A DNA stretch of 33,360 bases, taken from Sulfuricurvum sp. (GTDB taxonomy: Bacteria; Campylobacterota; Campylobacteria; Campylobacterales; Sulfurimonadaceae). The translations under genes and the position numbers were made by a program. Every line of letters starts with the position of its first letter. The first letter of the stretch is position 1. Below are positions 17,037 to 26,198 of the stretch, one piece after another. The stretch spans positions 1 through 33,360 of the forward strand of contig NZ_JAHFAQ010000007.1 of assembly GCF_023250475.1 (NCBI RefSeq), written 5' to 3'. The notes beneath the pieces were generated by a model. The model did not search any database. It saw only the letters and a program-made list of their open reading frames with translations, and was not told where the DNA came from.

Positions 17037-17732
17037 CTACATATAAGCATCATGCCATTGAACGAGGGAAAGTCGAAATCCCTCTTTAACCGGAAGGACT
17101 TCGTGAGCAAAATAGGGATTACTTAAAAATACTACCATATCTCCCGCTTCGGGACGAAGGGTAATCGTATTGCCATGCTCGTCGCACAGATAGTTAAACA
17201 GCAGTTCTCCCCCGCTAAAATGATCCTGATCACTCGGATGGGGTGTATAGGAGGTGGTAAATAGGACGGTGGTGAGCTTACGCTCCGTCGCAACGGTACG
17301 GTATCCGATCACATTCCCTTCTCGGTCACGAAGTTCGCTCGCATCATCGGAGTGTTTAAGATAAAAGGCCCCTCTCTCGTATCCGAGAACCTGCACATCC
17401 GTCGCTTTGCTCAATGAGAGAGAAAAAAAATCCTCTATCTCTTTCCGAACCGATTCAAAACGGCAATCATAGATTGCTCGGTGTTCACGACTTAGACGAT
17501 GGATATCGGTACGACGGATAGCGGTATCAACCGAACGTCCACGCAGTTGTGCCTCTATAGCCTCTTCATCCGCCAATGCGTACGCCGTAATAGCACGGCA
17601 TTCAGAGGGGCTTAAAACCCCTTCCAATACCATATAGGGAAAATCATGGTAAGGATTCGGAAGCCTTTTAGTCGGAATATCCCACTCCAAGAGTTCATCG
17701 CGCGCATATACGTAATTGCTAATCTGGTGCAC
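17037..17732 (-). CDS. 2-oxoglutarate/Fe(II)-dependent dioxygenase, PKHD/prolyl 4-hydroxylase type
   Basis: A 231-residue soluble oxygenase with a double-stranded beta-helix fold. The Fe(II) triad is readable as H127-x-D129 in YLKHSDD and H210 in NPYFAHEVLPV, with R220 ten residues later as the 2-oxoglutarate anchor. The spacing matches 2OG-FeII_Oxy_3 (P4Hc). The start is GTG at 17732, 4 bp after the exbD stop; the next in-frame ATG (residue 34) would remove the N-terminal strand region. The position after exbB-exbD recalls PiuC-type hydroxylases found with TonB-dependent iron uptake genes, but the substrate is unknown and the neighbourhood has no receptor. Iron or siderophore-related hydroxylation is an inference. 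Confidence 0.88.
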   Translation of the reverse strand: MHQISNYVYARDELLEWDIPTKRLPNPYHDFPYMVLEGVLSPSECRAITAYALADEEAIEAQLRGRSVDTAIRRTDIHRLSREHRAIYDCRFESVRKEIEDFFSLSLSKATDVQVLGYERGAFYLKHSDDASELRDREGNVIGYRTVATERKLTTVLFTTSYTPHPSDQDHFSGGELLFNYLCDEHGNTITLRPEAGDMVVFLSNPYFAHEVLPVKEGFRLSLVQWHDAYM

Positions 17733-17736
17733 TCGA

Positions 17737-18123
17737 TTACTTTTTGTCGGTCACAATATAGAGTTGTTCATGCCCGAGGCGTTTGAGAACATCCATCACA
17801 CCGACAAAGTTTTGAAAAGCTGCCTCTTTATCGCTGTAAAGAACAACCGTCATCTCTTTGCCCCCCTCAGTAACTTTTTGTTCAAACTCCGCTAGCGTAA
17901 TCGGTCTCTTTTCCTCGCCCAATATCAATGTCCCGTCTTTTTCAATCGTAAGCTTGAGTTCCGATTGCTTATGCTCGGCGGCAGTCCCTTTGGCTTCCGG
18001 TAAATCGACCGGGATGAGTCCTGTTCGGATAAAGGTCGCAGTCGTTAGAACCATCACCAAAAGAACCAGCATAATATCGATGAAAGGGATAACGTTGATC
18101 GTATCGATCCGTTTCATTCTCAT
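17737..18123 (-). CDS. exbD: ExbD/TolR-family proton-channel protein
   Basis: A 128-residue protein with one N-terminal membrane helix and a periplasmic domain. The helix PFIDIMLVLLVMVLTTATFI carries the conserved Asp (FID) that carries protons through the ExbB-ExbD motor. The periplasmic part ends in the typical LYSDKEAAF...VMDVLKRLG pattern. The start is ATG at 18123 after GAGGAT; a second ATG two codons later (18117) is possible. It follows exbB by 4 bp. With ExbB it should energise a TonB protein, but no TonB is encoded in this window; TolQR is an alternative reading made less likely by the short ExbB partner and the neighbours. Confidence 0.93.
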   Translation of the reverse strand: MRMKRIDTINVIPFIDIMLVLLVMVLTTATFIRTGLIPVDLPEAKGTAAEHKQSELKLTIEKDGTLILGEEKRPITLAEFEQKVTEGGKEMTVVLYSDKEAAFQNFVGVMDVLKRLGHEQLYIVTDKK

Positions 18124-18127
18124 GAGA

Positions 18128-18577
18128 TTATCCTCGGCTTTTGTGGGCGATAATATCCCACTGCGTCAGCAGCCGTTCCATTTTACGGAGCAGAATATTG
18201 TAAAACACGATAGAGGGGATCGCCACCACTAACCCCATCGCCGTTGCTTTGAGTGCCAATGCAAGCCCTGTCATAATCTTTTTAGGATCAACCGCTCCGA
18301 CATCACCGAGAGAATAAAACGTAATCATAATCCCTAGAACAGTCCCTAAAAGTCCTACATACGGAGCGTTTGAGCCGATCGTCGCGATGGTGCTGACGTT
18401 ATCGCCTAAATCAAGTTCAAGCTCCTCTTTGCTCTCGTAATCACCGATACGAACTGCGCTGTACGCCATTAAGCGCTCAATAAAGAGCCATAACGATACA
18501 ATACTCATCATCACCAAAATTCCGATAATCCCATAATCCACAACATTATGTGCCCAGCCGAGCCAACTATTTTCCAT
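18128..18577 (-). CDS. exbB: ExbB/TolQ-family motor protein
   Basis: A 149-residue inner-membrane protein with three helices forming the proton-driven pore around ExbD. The MotA/TolQ/ExbB domain is recognised by IGSNAPYVGLLGTVLGIMITF (about residues 67-87) and TGLALALKATAMGLVVAIPSIVFYN (about 103-127). It is shorter than E. coli ExbB, lacking the long N-terminal extension, as in the ExbB2-type proteins of Helicobacter and Campylobacter. The ATG at 18577 lies 11 bp inside the end of the interrupted histidine kinase gene, and exbD follows 4 bp later, indicating one transcript with coupled translation. Confidence 0.94.
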   Translation of the reverse strand: MENSWLGWAHNVVDYGIIGILVMMSIVSLWLFIERLMAYSAVRIGDYESKEELELDLGDNVSTIATIGSNAPYVGLLGTVLGIMITFYSLGDVGAVDPKKIMTGLALALKATAMGLVVAIPSIVFYNILLRKMERLLTQWDIIAHKSRG

Positions 18578-19412
18578 CTATTTCCCTTTTTTTAAATTCA
18601 AGTTTGACACATGTCCCCGCATCAAGCCGCGAAGAGATGTGCAATCCGATACCGTAACGATCACAATAACGCTTCACCAGATTTAAACCGATCCCATAAC
18701 CCGCCATCGTCGAGTCGCTTTGGTAATAGCGATCATAAATATGGATCAGGGTAATTTCGTCCATCCCTATCCCCTGATCACAAATACTCAGAGTATTCTC
18801 TCGAAGTGTAATCGTGATTATAGGGTGTTTGGGTGAATATTTCACCCCGTTTTCAATCAAATTATCGATCACTTTCCCCAATCCGATCCGATCGCAATTG
18901 ACTTCACAAGAATCAAGGCTAACTTCCCAAACAACACTCGGATAGAGAGAACGCAAAAACATCAGACGCTCTTCAATCACTTCACGCAGATCAAAAGCCT
19001 CGATTTTCTCCCGTTCACTCTGTTTTTTGATCAAATAATCGAGTTCGTTGTAGCGTTCTTTCAACATCTCAGCCGCAATCTAGATCCGCTCAAGTCGTTT
19101 AATGCTTTTCTCATCGGTATGTGTTTTGCGGAGCATCTGAACATTCGCGGTGATCGTATTGATCGGGAGATTCAGTTCATGGAGAGTCTCTTTGGAGAAA
19201 CGCTCCAAATGGTCAAAATGCTCCCGTAGAGGCGTGATCGCAATTTTTGCCAATATACTGCCCGCAACCAGAGTGATAATCAATGAGACGAATGCAATAA
19301 TTCCCCATTGCTGAACGCCAAGCACATCATGCACATAATATATACCGGCAATCAAAATACCGGTCGTAGTTACATACAACGATGCCAATGCAATTTCGAC
19401 ACTACGGAACAA
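18567..19412 (-). pseudogene. Sensor histidine kinase interrupted by an in-frame TAG codon
   Basis: One 281-codon reading frame encodes a compact sensor kinase but has a TAG at 19080-19082 (codon 111). Before it are two membrane helices (about residues 8-28 and 34-60) separated by a very short periplasmic loop, then the phospho-acceptor box LHELNLPINTI. After it, in the same frame, come the second DHp helix and the ATPase domain: N-box DNLIENGVKYSP, DQGIGM and GYGIGLNLVKRYC. The stop falls inside the four-helix dimerisation domain. An ATG at 19067, four codons later, could restart translation and yield the ATPase half alone (166 residues), but only a weak GCTGAG precedes it. The 5' end (TTG at 19412) overlaps the response regulator gene by 11 bp. 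A recent nonsense mutation, a sequencing error or suppression are all possible. Confidence 0.82.
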
Positions 19413-20058
19413 GACGATACCCTACTCCGCGGATATTGACGATCAACTCCGATCCGATCTCCTGTTTGAGACGATTGATATAAACCCGTATCGCCCCGTC
19501 ACTAATCATCTCCGAAGGGGTCCAAAGGGTATCCATAATCGTCTCTTTGGTGACAATTTCACCGGCATTTCGGATAAAAAGAGCCATCAGCTGATACTCT
19601 TTCAGGGAAAACGAGAGCTCTCTGCCCCCCATTAAAACACATTTATGTGTTTCATCAAGACAAAGCTCACCGGCACAATGACGCACTTTTCCCTTGCTAC
19701 GGCGCAGAAGTGCATGTATTCGAATAAGCAGTTCATCGGTATCGAACGGTTTTTTGAGATAATCCTCAGCCCCTATTTCAAAAGCTTTTGTGAGCGTTTC
19801 AATCTCCTGATGGGAAGAGAGATAAATGCACGGAGTGGTATCGTCGGCACGGCGAAGCTCTTGCAGAAGCGATAATCCGTCTATAAGAGGAACATTGATA
19901 TCCAGAAGATAAAGATCAAAACGGTTTTTATAGGTCTCATCAAGAGCAGCTTGTCCATTACGGCACAAGGTGACTTCAAAGCCCTCCTCTTCCAACACAT
20001 CTACGATCGATTCGCCAAAAAGCAAATCATCCTCCAGCAGTAAAATCTTAGTCAACAC
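19402..20058 (-). CDS. OmpR/PhoB-family response regulator
   Basis: A 218-residue two-component regulator. The receiver domain (about residues 3-117) has the acidic pair E9-D10, phospho-acceptor D53 in LLDINVPLIDG, a switch Ser in YLSS and the K in LKKPF. The winged-helix DNA-binding domain (about 125-218) shows SLKEYQLMALFIRNAGEIVTKE and the recognition-helix end AIRVYINRLKQEI...VRGVGYRL-like. The GTG start at 20058 overlaps pyrC by 11 bp, and the partner kinase overlaps its 3' end. Because the kinase is interrupted, the regulator may be orphaned or driven by another kinase. Downstream exbB-exbD-dioxygenase are plausible targets by position only. Confidence 0.93.
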   Translation of the reverse strand: MLTKILLLEDDLLFGESIVDVLEEEGFEVTLCRNGQAALDETYKNRFDLYLLDINVPLIDGLSLLQELRRADDTTPCIYLSSHQEIETLTKAFEIGAEDYLKKPFDTDELLIRIHALLRRSKGKVRHCAGELCLDETHKCVLMGGRELSFSLKEYQLMALFIRNAGEIVTKETIMDTLWTPSEMISDGAIRVYINRLKQEIGSELIVNIRGVGYRLVP

Positions 20059-21058
20059 GCTCTATCGACCACTTCAACGTTTCTCCCGCATTCATCGGTA
20101 CGACACTGCCGTAGATTTCGGGAACCACAAAATCGTGTTTCACCAACACAATCTCTTTAAATTCGGCACAGATACCGTAAATACGCTGAGCATTATCACT
20201 CACAAACGACTGTAGATTATCGAGTTTATCATGAGAATCAAATACCTCGCACAGCAACTGTAATGCGATGGGTGCGGTAAAGACCCCTGCCCCGCATCCG
20301 CAGGACTCTTTCGTATGTTTCGGGTGAGGCGCCGAATCGGAGCCGAACATCACTTTCGGGTGGGCTTCAAGCGCCACTTTCAAAAGTGCAGAGCGATCTT
20401 CGGGACGTTTGGCGATCGGTTTGCAAAACAGATGGGGTCGAAGCATCCCCCCCGCTACATCATCGAGGGTGATGATGAGATGGTGTACCGAAATCGTTGC
20501 ATAAAGATTTTCATAACGATCCAGCATTGCTACCGCATCGGCAGTCGTAATATGCTCCATAACGATTTTGAGCTTCGGAAAATTGGTTGCCAACATCTCA
20601 TAAACAGACATAAACTCCGCTTCCCGATCCATCACAAACCCGTTGGTCTCTCCATGAACTGAGAGGATAATCCCCAGATCACTCATCGCTTCGAGCGTTT
20701 CACGCATCAACTCGATATCAAAGGAGCTTACTCCCCCTTCCGAGTTCGTTGTTACACCGCTTGGGTAGAGTTTAATGGCGGTAATCTCATCTTGAACACT
20801 CTCTAAAAATGCTTTACTATAGTTTTGGTAAAAAAGGGTCATATAAGGTTCAAAATCATCCCGTCCTATAGCGTGTTTAATCCGTTTTTTATACTCTTTG
20901 ACCCCATCAAGCGTCGTCACCGGAGGGACAAGATTCGGCATTACGAGCGCACCGCTAAAACTGTACGACGTCAGCGGTGCAACGGTCTCTAACATCTCTC
21001 CGTCACGAAGATGCAGATGCATATCGAGCGGCATTGTCAAAGTAATTGATTTCATCAT
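20048..21058 (-). CDS. pyrC: Dihydroorotase
   Basis: A 336-residue metal-dependent amidohydrolase that interconverts carbamoyl-aspartate and dihydroorotate in pyrimidine synthesis. MPLDMHLHLRDGE gives zinc ligands H14 and H16; K96 in AIKLYPSG is the carbamylated lysine; SVHGE and MEHITT supply further His ligands; and GSDSAPHP carries the catalytic Asp. Length fits the class II PyrC of E. coli type. The start ATG at 21058 shares one base with the stop of the upstream mutase gene (TAATG). A second ATG directly follows. It overlaps the response regulator downstream by 11 bp, so a housekeeping gene is in the same transcript as the two-component genes. Confidence 0.97.
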   Translation of the reverse strand: MMKSITLTMPLDMHLHLRDGEMLETVAPLTSYSFSGALVMPNLVPPVTTLDGVKEYKKRIKHAIGRDDFEPYMTLFYQNYSKAFLESVQDEITAIKLYPSGVTTNSEGGVSSFDIELMRETLEAMSDLGIILSVHGETNGFVMDREAEFMSVYEMLATNFPKLKIVMEHITTADAVAMLDRYENLYATISVHHLIITLDDVAGGMLRPHLFCKPIAKRPEDRSALLKVALEAHPKVMFGSDSAPHPKHTKESCGCGAGVFTAPIALQLLCEVFDSHDKLDNLQSFVSDNAQRIYGICAEFKEIVLVKHDFVVPEIYGSVVPMNAGETLKWSIERVD

Positions 21059-22551: not shown

Positions 22552-23730
22552 TTAAATAGCGCGTTTGAACTCAGGATAGGCTTCAAGACCGCACTCGCTG
22601 ACATCAAGCCCTTGCTGCTGTTCCTCATCACTTGCACGGAAAGGGAATACTTTATTGATAAGATAGATAATAACAAACGAAACCGGAAATACAAAAAGTG
22701 CAATTTCGGCAATCCCTTTGAGTTGATTCAATAGGGTTATATTGTTTGCAACGTCGCTTGCGAAAATTCCCACCGCAAGTGTCCCCCAAATACCGTTTAC
22801 CAAATGAACCGACAATGCCCCGACCGGATCATCAATGCGTACTTTATCAAATAGCGGAATCGCAACCACCACCAAAAGACCGCCGATAAATCCGACCGCT
22901 AACGCATCATAAAGAGAGAACAGATGAGCCCCTGCCGTAACCGCAACCAATCCGCCAAGGGCGCCGTTGAGAATCATTGTAATATCAAACAATTTGTAGC
23001 GTACATAGATTAAAATTCCGGCAGATATTGCCCCTGTCAACCCTGCAAGATTGGTATTGAAAATCGTCAATGCGACGCTATCGGCCAACGCTTTCGTCGA
23101 AATACCTCCGACAGAACCGCCGTTAAATCCAAACCAACCGATCCAAAGCAACATCGCTCCCAAAACCACCAACGGGATATTTGAAGCGGGGATAACACGC
23201 ATTTGACCTCCGACATAGCGACCTTTACGTGCTCCGATGACCAAAATAGCCGCAAGCAATGCCCATCCCCCCGTAGAGTGGATAACGGTAGAACCTGCCA
23301 AATCGACCATATTGATATCCAGTAACGTATCTTTGATCCAATCGCTTCCCCAGCTGATGTTCACCGCTGTCGGATAGATGAATGCACCCATTACAACCGT
23401 AAAAAGGGTTAAAGGGAGAAGGCGGGCACGTTCACCCACCCCACCGCTCATAATGTTGATCGCTTTACCGACAAACGCCATTTGGAACATAAAAAATGCC
23501 CATTGACTCATCGTGCTACTATGAAAATCGCCAAATGCAAGATGAAACCCAACCAAAATAAAAGCCATCGACGCCACCGCATAAATCATAACGTTAACGG
23601 TCAAAACGCTGGAGACGTTTTTTGTCCGAACCAAACCTGCTTCGAGCATCGCGAAACCGGGAACCATTAATATAATCAGGGTAATTGAAAAGAGGGCAAA
23701 GAGGGTGTCAATAACGTAAGCAGTATCCAT
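22552..23730 (-). CDS. amt: Ammonium transporter (Amt family), second copy
   Basis: A 392-residue ammonium channel with 11 predicted helices and no cleavable signal peptide. Diagnostic stretches are FAMLEAGLVRTKNV in helix 1-2, DLAGSTVIHSTGGWALLAA with the first pore His, LWIGWFGFNGGS, and ALSVHLVNGIWGTLAVG with the second pore His. The C-terminal cytoplasmic segment EEQQQGLDVSECGLEAYPEF is the PII-docking tail. It is clearly different from the other amt of this window (GSTVIHSTGG against GGTVVHMNGG), so it is not a recent duplicate. The gene has its own promoter and an upstream inverted repeat shared with the other amt. The upstream glnB is 179 bp away. Confidence 0.96.
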   Translation of the reverse strand: MDTAYVIDTLFALFSITLIILMVPGFAMLEAGLVRTKNVSSVLTVNVMIYAVASMAFILVGFHLAFGDFHSSTMSQWAFFMFQMAFVGKAINIMSGGVGERARLLPLTLFTVVMGAFIYPTAVNISWGSDWIKDTLLDINMVDLAGSTVIHSTGGWALLAAILVIGARKGRYVGGQMRVIPASNIPLVVLGAMLLWIGWFGFNGGSVGGISTKALADSVALTIFNTNLAGLTGAISAGILIYVRYKLFDITMILNGALGGLVAVTAGAHLFSLYDALAVGFIGGLLVVVAIPLFDKVRIDDPVGALSVHLVNGIWGTLAVGIFASDVANNITLLNQLKGIAEIALFVFPVSFVIIYLINKVFPFRASDEEQQQGLDVSECGLEAYPEFKRAI

Positions 23731-23761
23731 GCGGCACCTTTAGTTTAAGATAAAGGTGTGC

Positions 23762-23767
23762 ATTATA
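23762..23767 (-). promoter_or_regulatory. -10 box of the second amt gene
   Basis: A perfect TATAAT on the minus strand, predicted start near 23755, about 25 nt before the ATG. There is no -35 box at 16-18 bp, which fits an activator-dependent promoter. The shared inverted repeat is centred 40 bp upstream of this box. Confidence 0.55.
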
Positions 23768-23796
23768 TATCCAACTAAATGGATTTGAGGAGAAGA

Positions 23797-23817
23797 ATTG
23801 ATTAATTTTTAATCAAT
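23797..23817. promoter_or_regulatory. Inverted-repeat operator of the second amt gene
   Basis: ATTGATTAA, three bases (TTT) and TTAATCAAT form a perfect 9-3-9 inverted repeat centred near -52 of the predicted start. The same arms recur upstream of the other amt at 25709-25729. The binding protein is unknown. Confidence 0.6.
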
Positions 23818-23827
23818 CGAATAAATT

Positions 23828-23903
23828 GCACGCTCGCGTGCTTGGGCTTGACTTCTGAAGTAAACCCAGTGTTAACGTAGCAATCGGGACGAGTTCCGAT
23901 TGC
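23828..23903 (-). other. Three consecutive hairpins between glnB and amt
   Basis: The intergenic region holds GCACGC/GCGTGC (23828-23841), an imperfect stem GGGCTTGACTT/AAGTAAACCC (23844-23867) and GCAATCGG/CCGATTGC (23880-23903). The last begins 6 bp after the glnB stop codon on the minus strand. None has a T-tract directly after it, so they may stabilise or process the amt-glnB mRNA rather than end it by an intrinsic mechanism. Confidence 0.45.
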
Positions 23904-23909
23904 GTGTTA

Positions 23910-24251
<342 letters not shown>

Positions 24252-24261
24252 TCATTCCTTC

Positions 24262-25617
24262 TTATAGGTTAAATCCACGTTCACCGTGTACTGATTCATC
24301 CAAACCTTGGCTCTCTTGCTCTTCGTTAACACGAGAACCGCCGGTTAATGCCATTGCTACATAGTACACTACGACCGTACCGACCAAAGTAAATAACCCG
24401 ACCAATAGAGCCGATTCGGCTTGAACCATGATTTGTCCCATACGATCACCCGCATCTTTCAACGGTCCAGCCCAAAGAAGCGCGTTATCGCTGTTTGGCG
24501 TATACAGAGCGAACACACCGGTTGCAATCGCACCCCAAAGACCTGCAAGGAAGTGAACTCCGAATGCATCCAAACTATCATCGTAACCCAATTTTTTCTT
24601 GAGCGCCGTTACACCGAAGAATGCTACTACCGCCCCTACTGCACCAATAATCAATGCACCGCCGACACTTACGAATCCCGCTGCCGGAGTAATCGCTACT
24701 AACCCTGCGATCGCACCTGAAGCTGCACCAAGAAGGGTCGGTTTTTTGAACACTGCGTACTCAACTACGATCCATGTTACCGTTGCTACCGCAGCCGCAA
24801 TGGTTGTTGTAAGGAATGCTACACCGGCGATTGCGTTCGCACCGAAAGCTGAACCGGCATTAAATCCGTACCAACCGAACCAGAGTAAACCGGCACCCAC
24901 AGCGGTCAAAATAACACTAGCCGGTTTCATCGCTACTTTTGGATAGCCCGCACGTTTACCGATCAATAGAGCAAGAACAAGACCAGCCAAACCGCCGTTC
25001 ATATGAACAACCGTACCACCTGCGAAGTCAAGAGCACCTTCGTTGAAGAGGTAACCGCCGCCCCATACCATGTGAGCAATCGGAGAATAAACGACGATTG
25101 TCCAGATAAACGCAAATACCATCCATGTCGAGTATTTCATACGTTCGATAACCGAACCTGCCACAATCGCAATGGTAATAGCTGCAAATGTCCCTTGGAA
25201 CGCAACAAATACAAATTTAGGATAAAGTTGTCCCAATTCAACACTAGCAAAATCAGTCCAGCTGATACCATTGAGCATCACATTTGAAAATCCGCCGATG
25301 ACTTGGTTCATTGAACCCTCAGCCGTACCGAATGCGATAGAGAAACCTGCGATTACCCAGGCAATAATCGCGACTGCAAAAGCACCGAATACCATTGCGT
25401 ACGTATTAAGAACATTTTTCGCTCTTGTCATTCCGCCGTAAAACAATGCCAAACCGATCGGTGTCATCAACATAACCAATGCTGTTGACATCATCATCCA
25501 TGCAGTATCCCCTGTATTAAGTACAGGTGCCGCAACTGCTGCTGCAACCGTTGCATTAGCGTCATCAGCAAACGCCGATACACCAAGTAGCGATAAAGCT
25601 AAAAGCCACTTTTTCAT
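24262..25617 (-). CDS. amt: Ammonium transporter (Amt family), first copy with signal peptide
   Basis: A 451-residue ammonium channel of the AmtB type. The N-terminal MKKWLLALSLLGVSAFA is a cleavable signal peptide with cleavage expected before DDANA, as in E. coli AmtB. The channel then shows GLALFYGGMTRAKNVLNT, DFAGGTVVHMNGGLAGLVLAL with pore His, LLWFGWYGFNAGSAFG, and FGVHFLAGLWGAIATGVFALY with the second pore His. The C-terminal tail EEQESQGLDESVHGERGF is the PII contact region. I chose the ATG at 25617, which has AAGGAGAG before it; a longer frame from 25674 would cover the promoter elements. It is followed after 13 bp by glnB, the usual amtB-glnK pairing in reversed order. Confidence 0.97.
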   Translation of the reverse strand: MKKWLLALSLLGVSAFADDANATVAAAVAAPVLNTGDTAWMMMSTALVMLMTPIGLALFYGGMTRAKNVLNTYAMVFGAFAVAIIAWVIAGFSIAFGTAEGSMNQVIGGFSNVMLNGISWTDFASVELGQLYPKFVFVAFQGTFAAITIAIVAGSVIERMKYSTWMVFAFIWTIVVYSPIAHMVWGGGYLFNEGALDFAGGTVVHMNGGLAGLVLALLIGKRAGYPKVAMKPASVILTAVGAGLLWFGWYGFNAGSAFGANAIAGVAFLTTTIAAAVATVTWIVVEYAVFKKPTLLGAASGAIAGLVAITPAAGFVSVGGALIIGAVGAVVAFFGVTALKKKLGYDDSLDAFGVHFLAGLWGAIATGVFALYTPNSDNALLWAGPLKDAGDRMGQIMVQAESALLVGLFTLVGTVVVYYVAMALTGGSRVNEEQESQGLDESVHGERGFNL

Positions 25618-25672
25618 TTTCTCTCCTTGTTTGGACTTTTTAATGTCCGAATTAACTAAAATGTCAAATACC

Positions 25673-25678
25673 ATTGTA
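25673..25678 (-). promoter_or_regulatory. -10 box of the amt-glnB operon
   Basis: TACAAT on the minus strand, predicted start near 25666, without a usable -35. The shared inverted repeat is centred 41 bp upstream, mirroring the other amt promoter. A second candidate, TTGACA (25662-25667) with a 17-bp spacer and ATTAAA (25639-25644), lies closer to the gene and could be a constitutive promoter. Confidence 0.5.
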
Positions 25679-25708
25679 CAGAGTAATCCAAATGAGCGTG
25701 TGCAGATT

Positions 25709-25729
25709 ATTGATTAAATTTTAATCAAT
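25709..25729. promoter_or_regulatory. Inverted-repeat operator of the amt-glnB operon
   Basis: ATTGATTAA, three bases (ATT) and TTAATCAAT form a perfect 9-3-9 inverted repeat centred near -53 of the predicted start. Both arms are identical to those at 23797-23817. The remaining sequence up to 25798 is AT-rich and without further recognisable signal. Confidence 0.6.
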
Positions 25730-25798
25730 GTGTTGTGTGAAATAAAAATTGTGAATTTAGCGATATTTTAATAGCATCGAAGATAAAAATGATTGCGG

Positions 25799-25820
25799 GT
25801 TCAAAGCCTGCGCTTTGAAC
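25799..25820 (-). terminator. Hairpin after glnB copy 2, probable terminator
   Basis: A perfect 9-bp stem, GTTCAAAGC and GCTTTGAAC, with a 4-nt loop lies 18 bp after the stop of glnB copy 2. On the minus strand it is followed by CCCGCAATCATTTTTATC, a T-tract displaced by about ten bases. It probably separates glnB copy 2 from the amt-glnB transcript. Confidence 0.5.
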
Positions 25821-25838
25821 TATTGTATGTTTAGCAGA

Positions 25839-26198
<360 letters not shown>

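Follow-up and report, generated by a model that had tools for sequence, protein, structure and literature searches.

A private in-frame TAG in a Sulfuricurvum sensor histidine kinase gene is probably a consensus base error

We found that the TAG interrupting a sensor histidine kinase gene in the draft genome of a sulfur-oxidizing Sulfuricurvum is probably (at about 0.68) a single G:C-to-T:A error of the consensus sequence, one of several in the assembly, and that the gene is an ordinary kinase gene. A base error is favored over a recent loss of the gene because equivalent private stops occur in the single-copy genes dxs, kdsB, and nadC. The window, that is, the whole stretch of 33,360 nucleotides analyzed here, is contig C83 of an assembly of 185 contigs and 2.17 Mb, which is 94.95% complete. 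The features are listed in Table 1.

Table 1. Coordinates of the kinase gene, its neighbors, and the private stops found in the assembly (window positions unless a locus is given)
Feature	Position	Strand	Basis
Sensor histidine kinase gene, 281 codons, one interruption	18567..19412	-	Pfam, orthologues
Kinase start codon TTG	at 19412	-	translation
Kinase terminal TAG	18569-18567	-	translation
In-frame TAG, codon 111 of 281	19080..19082	-	translation, orthologues
N-terminal part before the stop, with two predicted membrane segments and H-box His78	19083..19412	-	hydropathy, motifs
C-terminal part from ATG codon 116, with HATPase_c and N, G1, and G2 boxes	18567..19067	-	Pfam, motifs
OmpR-type response regulator, Response_reg and Trans_reg_C, intact	19402..20058	-	Pfam
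MotA/TolQ/ExbB family protein, directly downstream of kinase	18128..18577	-	Pfam
ExbD/TolR family protein	17737..18123	-	Pfam
dxs private stop TGA	L125 8681-8683 (contig C89)	-	survey, relatives
kdsB private stop TAG	L118 2320-2322 (contig C168)	-	survey, relatives
nadC private stop TAG	L151 9139-9141 (contig C37)	-	survey, relatives
Hybrid histidine kinase private stop TAA	L144 2508-2510 (contig C61)	+	by eye, relatives

The initial annotation had described a kinase frame split by one TAG, with the same frame on both sides, and its coordinates were right. The gene lies on the minus strand: in the translation from 19412 to 18567, the frame runs unchanged across codon 111 to the terminal TAG. 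The motifs on the two sides complement each other, as the initial annotation had also noted. The H-box (HELNLP, with His78) lies upstream of the stop, and the N-box (184), G1 (212), and G2 (238) lie downstream. The C-terminal part alone matched HATPase_c with 68.5 bits (cut-off 26.4), while no Pfam family matched the N-terminal part alone, and among the best 25 of 64 matched NCBIfam families none reached its cut-off. HisKA was placed at residues 70-130 with 22.1 bits, under the Pfam cut-off of 26.9. As this segment spans codon 111, the stop falls within the phospho-acceptor and dimerization region, which agrees with the proposed position inside the dimerization domain.

Hydropathy predicts membrane segments at residues ~6-25 and ~30-63. 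The presence of two such segments, the overlap with an adjacent OmpR-type regulator (whose 3' end covers the kinase start by 11 bases), and the order of the H, N, G1, and G2 boxes are all shared with the orthodox membrane kinases of OmpR systems, which carry HisKA and HATPase_c. Unlike these, the present kinase has a very short stretch between its membrane segments and a HisKA match below the Pfam cut-off, and in this assembly alone it carries the stop. Judged from its sequence, the feature would be an ordinary two-transmembrane sensor kinase gene with predicted kinase activity. The regulator had been reported as intact, and both of its domains are indeed present. The kinase has the same neighbors in all five relatives compared. 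Downstream of the kinase, a 2OG-Fe(II) oxygenase-family gene (17037-17732) adjoins the ExbB- and ExbD-type genes (17737-18577), and all three have matches in the syntenic stretches of the same five relatives. Possibly, they form an iron- or envelope-related unit under the kinase/regulator pair.

To learn the normal residue at codon 111, as the initial annotation had proposed, we searched 36 Sulfuricurvum genomes and obtained a full-length kinase orthologue from 32, with identities of 60-91% and the closest in the relative G017 (91%). Codon 111 encodes Glu in 32 of 32 (18 GAA and 14 GAG), and a stop is present in none. Therefore, the stop is private to this genome, and since the whole 281-codon frame aligns to the 32 orthologues, the frame is not a chance one. 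The orthologous kinases represent the same gene, with the same neighbors in the five relatives compared, differing by Glu at codon 111. The step from GAG to TAG would be one G-to-T change; the initial annotation had suggested that a single base change would restore the gene. In G004, the kinase comprises residues 149-281 only, the rest being cut off by a contig end; no orthologue was found in G023, G032, and G033, which are incomplete (83, 57, and 89%) and from which we conclude nothing. The 13 nearest named relatives of the protein are all from Sulfuricurvum (73-86% identity in the best segment), and the TTG start is common to nearly all Sulfuricurvum orthologues. Two apparent parallels were rejected. 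The TAG inside another kinase of this genome (L006) is the terminal stop of that gene, and a TAA in the G025 orthologue, at residue 275 of 277 aligned, reflects a slightly shorter C-terminus.

We then surveyed the assembly for similar lesions by comparing neighboring same-frame coding segments, with Pfam deciding which pairs form one domain. In 594 kb of this genome there were 43 candidates; the 38 outside the window were all tested with Pfam, and the 5 within it were judged by synteny with G017 or by their antisense position to known genes. Outside the window, domain-spanning breaks were found in kdsB, dxs, and nadC. A fourth, in a hybrid histidine kinase, was recognized by eye, its HisKA beginning three residues past the stop, and was confirmed by relatives. 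At each of the four positions, a sense codon was present in 7 of 7 relatives examined per gene, and dxs, kdsB, and nadC have one match each in this genome.

For comparison, none of 20 candidates in 440 kb (5 contigs) of G017 was spanned by a Pfam domain, nor did the 382 kb of G014 yield a case among 20 of its 21 candidates, the one left out being the GroES-GroEL border. Inspection of both lists was by eye alone and did not include the check on relatives given to the hybrid kinase. A homology comparison showed all five stops, though it is biased in that some G014 contigs were chosen for their orthologues of dxs, kdsB, and nadC/hybrid kinase. It also gave further internal stops: three here (in two ORFs), one in G017, and two in G014 (in one ORF). 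We took all of these for spurious antisense ORFs and discounted them, in the case of L108 and L171 by look alone; the window ORF at 20654-21058 lies opposite an amidohydrolase gene, and the L198 ORF lies opposite GroES. Taken alone, the contrast between five stops here (594 kb) and none in G017 (440 kb) is not strong evidence. The strong part of the survey argument is the identity of the broken genes.

The genes kdsB and nadC are usually needed, and a living cell in which three housekeeping genes are disrupted is difficult to credit. For dxs, a report on a Campylobacter jejuni transposon library describes insertions as absent or very rare and the gene as essential or crucial (PMC5438104), and on that account the dxs lesion, at least, is hard to believe real.

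All five private stops are G:C-to-T:A changes. They correspond to GAG or GAA to TAG in the kinase, GGA to TGA in dxs, TCG to TAG in kdsB, GAG to TAG in nadC, and GAA or GAG to TAA in the hybrid kinase; for the two kinases, whose relatives have GAA or GAG, the nearest single step was assumed. The chance of five out of five being of this type is 0.0025 under the private-change spectrum of the five relatives and 0.008 under equal rates. Among private amino-acid changes in the window genes, G:C-to-T:A accounted for 11 of 46 single-base changes here (the kinase stop included) versus 27 of 231 in the five relatives (two-sided P = 0.035), a weakly positive window-wide excess. Four of the five private stops lie in CpG context, which is not significant (P = 0.08). 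In a pairwise test covering 32,731 codons, amino-acid-changing differences from G017 in conserved surroundings showed no G:C-to-T:A excess (113 versus 111 in reverse), nor was there one in CpG context (11 versus 16). This null result means that errors would be too few to see in that test; the 594 kb would hold about 54 errors of this type, a number that the test could miss. A mutator phenotype through loss of mutY was rejected, as mutY is intact in this genome.

Taken together, we propose that codon 111, Glu in the relatives, was probably misread as TAG by one consensus error, caused for example by damage-type G-to-T miscalls at low coverage. As far as the accessible literature goes, G:C-to-T:A miscalls are a known mark of guanine oxidized during library preparation. 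The living organism would then make the full-length kinase. A signal at the membrane would lead to autophosphorylation at His78, and the phosphoryl group would be transferred to the adjacent OmpR-type regulator.

The initial annotation had left four readings unranked, namely error, recent loss, split kinase, and suppressed codon. Error and recent loss still stand; a conserved split is excluded, and nothing was found in favor of suppression. If the TAG were a genuine recent nonsense mutation, the kinase would have just been lost and its regulator orphaned, with an inactive 110-residue membrane fragment and a downstream part at most weakly translated. We regard this as rather unlikely. It fits a private stop that is a single clean lesion and substitution tests for errors that, on the wider scale, are negative or weak; moreover, sensor kinases are generally dispensable, so that errors in dxs, kdsB, and nadC would not preclude a genuine stop in the kinase. 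Against it, the matching stops in these three genes favor a common, non-biological cause, and the gene has not decayed. Its motifs are intact, and alignment to G017 revealed one stop and no frameshift. The dN/dS ratio versus G017 is 0.048 for the whole gene and 0.089 after the stop. With the stop set aside, there are 10 nonsynonymous and 34 synonymous lineage-specific changes here versus 12 and 39 in G017; past the stop the numbers are 10 and 10 versus 11 and 28 (P = 0.15). A pseudogene formed by decay was rejected on the low dN/dS and the lack of further lesions, yet judging from substitutions such an absence of decay would only limit the age of a loss.

A working split kinase, restarting at ATG 116 (or ATT 112) and assembling from two fragments with His78 phosphorylated in trans, is very improbable. 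The ATG lies five codons past the stop (at 19067), the motifs on either side are complementary, and, with EnvZ as an example, the catalytic domain of a histidine kinase is able to serve, in trans, a phospho-acceptor domain that is separate from it. However, the stop is kept in none of the 32 orthologues, which excludes a conserved split; the cut lies within the dimerization region rather than at a domain border; and by eye there is no clear ribosome-binding site upstream of ATG 116. That a fresh split still works, with a soluble catalytic fragment from ATG 116 phosphorylating the membrane H-box fragment in trans and a cut within a dimerization helix, we find scarcely credible.

Equally far-fetched is that the TAG is read through by a suppressor tRNA or recoding to give full-length kinase, even with three of the five private stops being TAG and all five lying in conserved genes: the 39 typed tRNA genes (assembly 94.95% complete) include no CUA anticodon and none that reads a stop, three release-factor-family genes are intact, of 157 long frames with a complete stop, 25 terminate in TAG, as does this kinase, and the remaining two of the five private stops are a TGA and a TAA, with original residues that differ among the five (Glu, Gly, and Ser). 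On the tRNAs, release factors, and TAG usage, suppression is unlikely, and a TAG-recoded or suppressing genome was rejected.

In the parts of the literature accessible to us, we found nothing on this gene in work on split or truncated kinases and Sulfuricurvum two-component systems, and no paper on pseudogenes in metagenome assemblies. In this assembly, with its stops of one type in housekeeping genes, reads are needed before a lone nonsense codon is taken as gene loss, splitting, or recoding. Were the kinase stop genuine, it would add one more recently lost sensor kinase.

Elsewhere in the window (22552-26177), a pair of P-II genes, near-identical and each of 112 aa, is interleaved with two ammonium transporter genes, and all four are matched in the five relatives compared.
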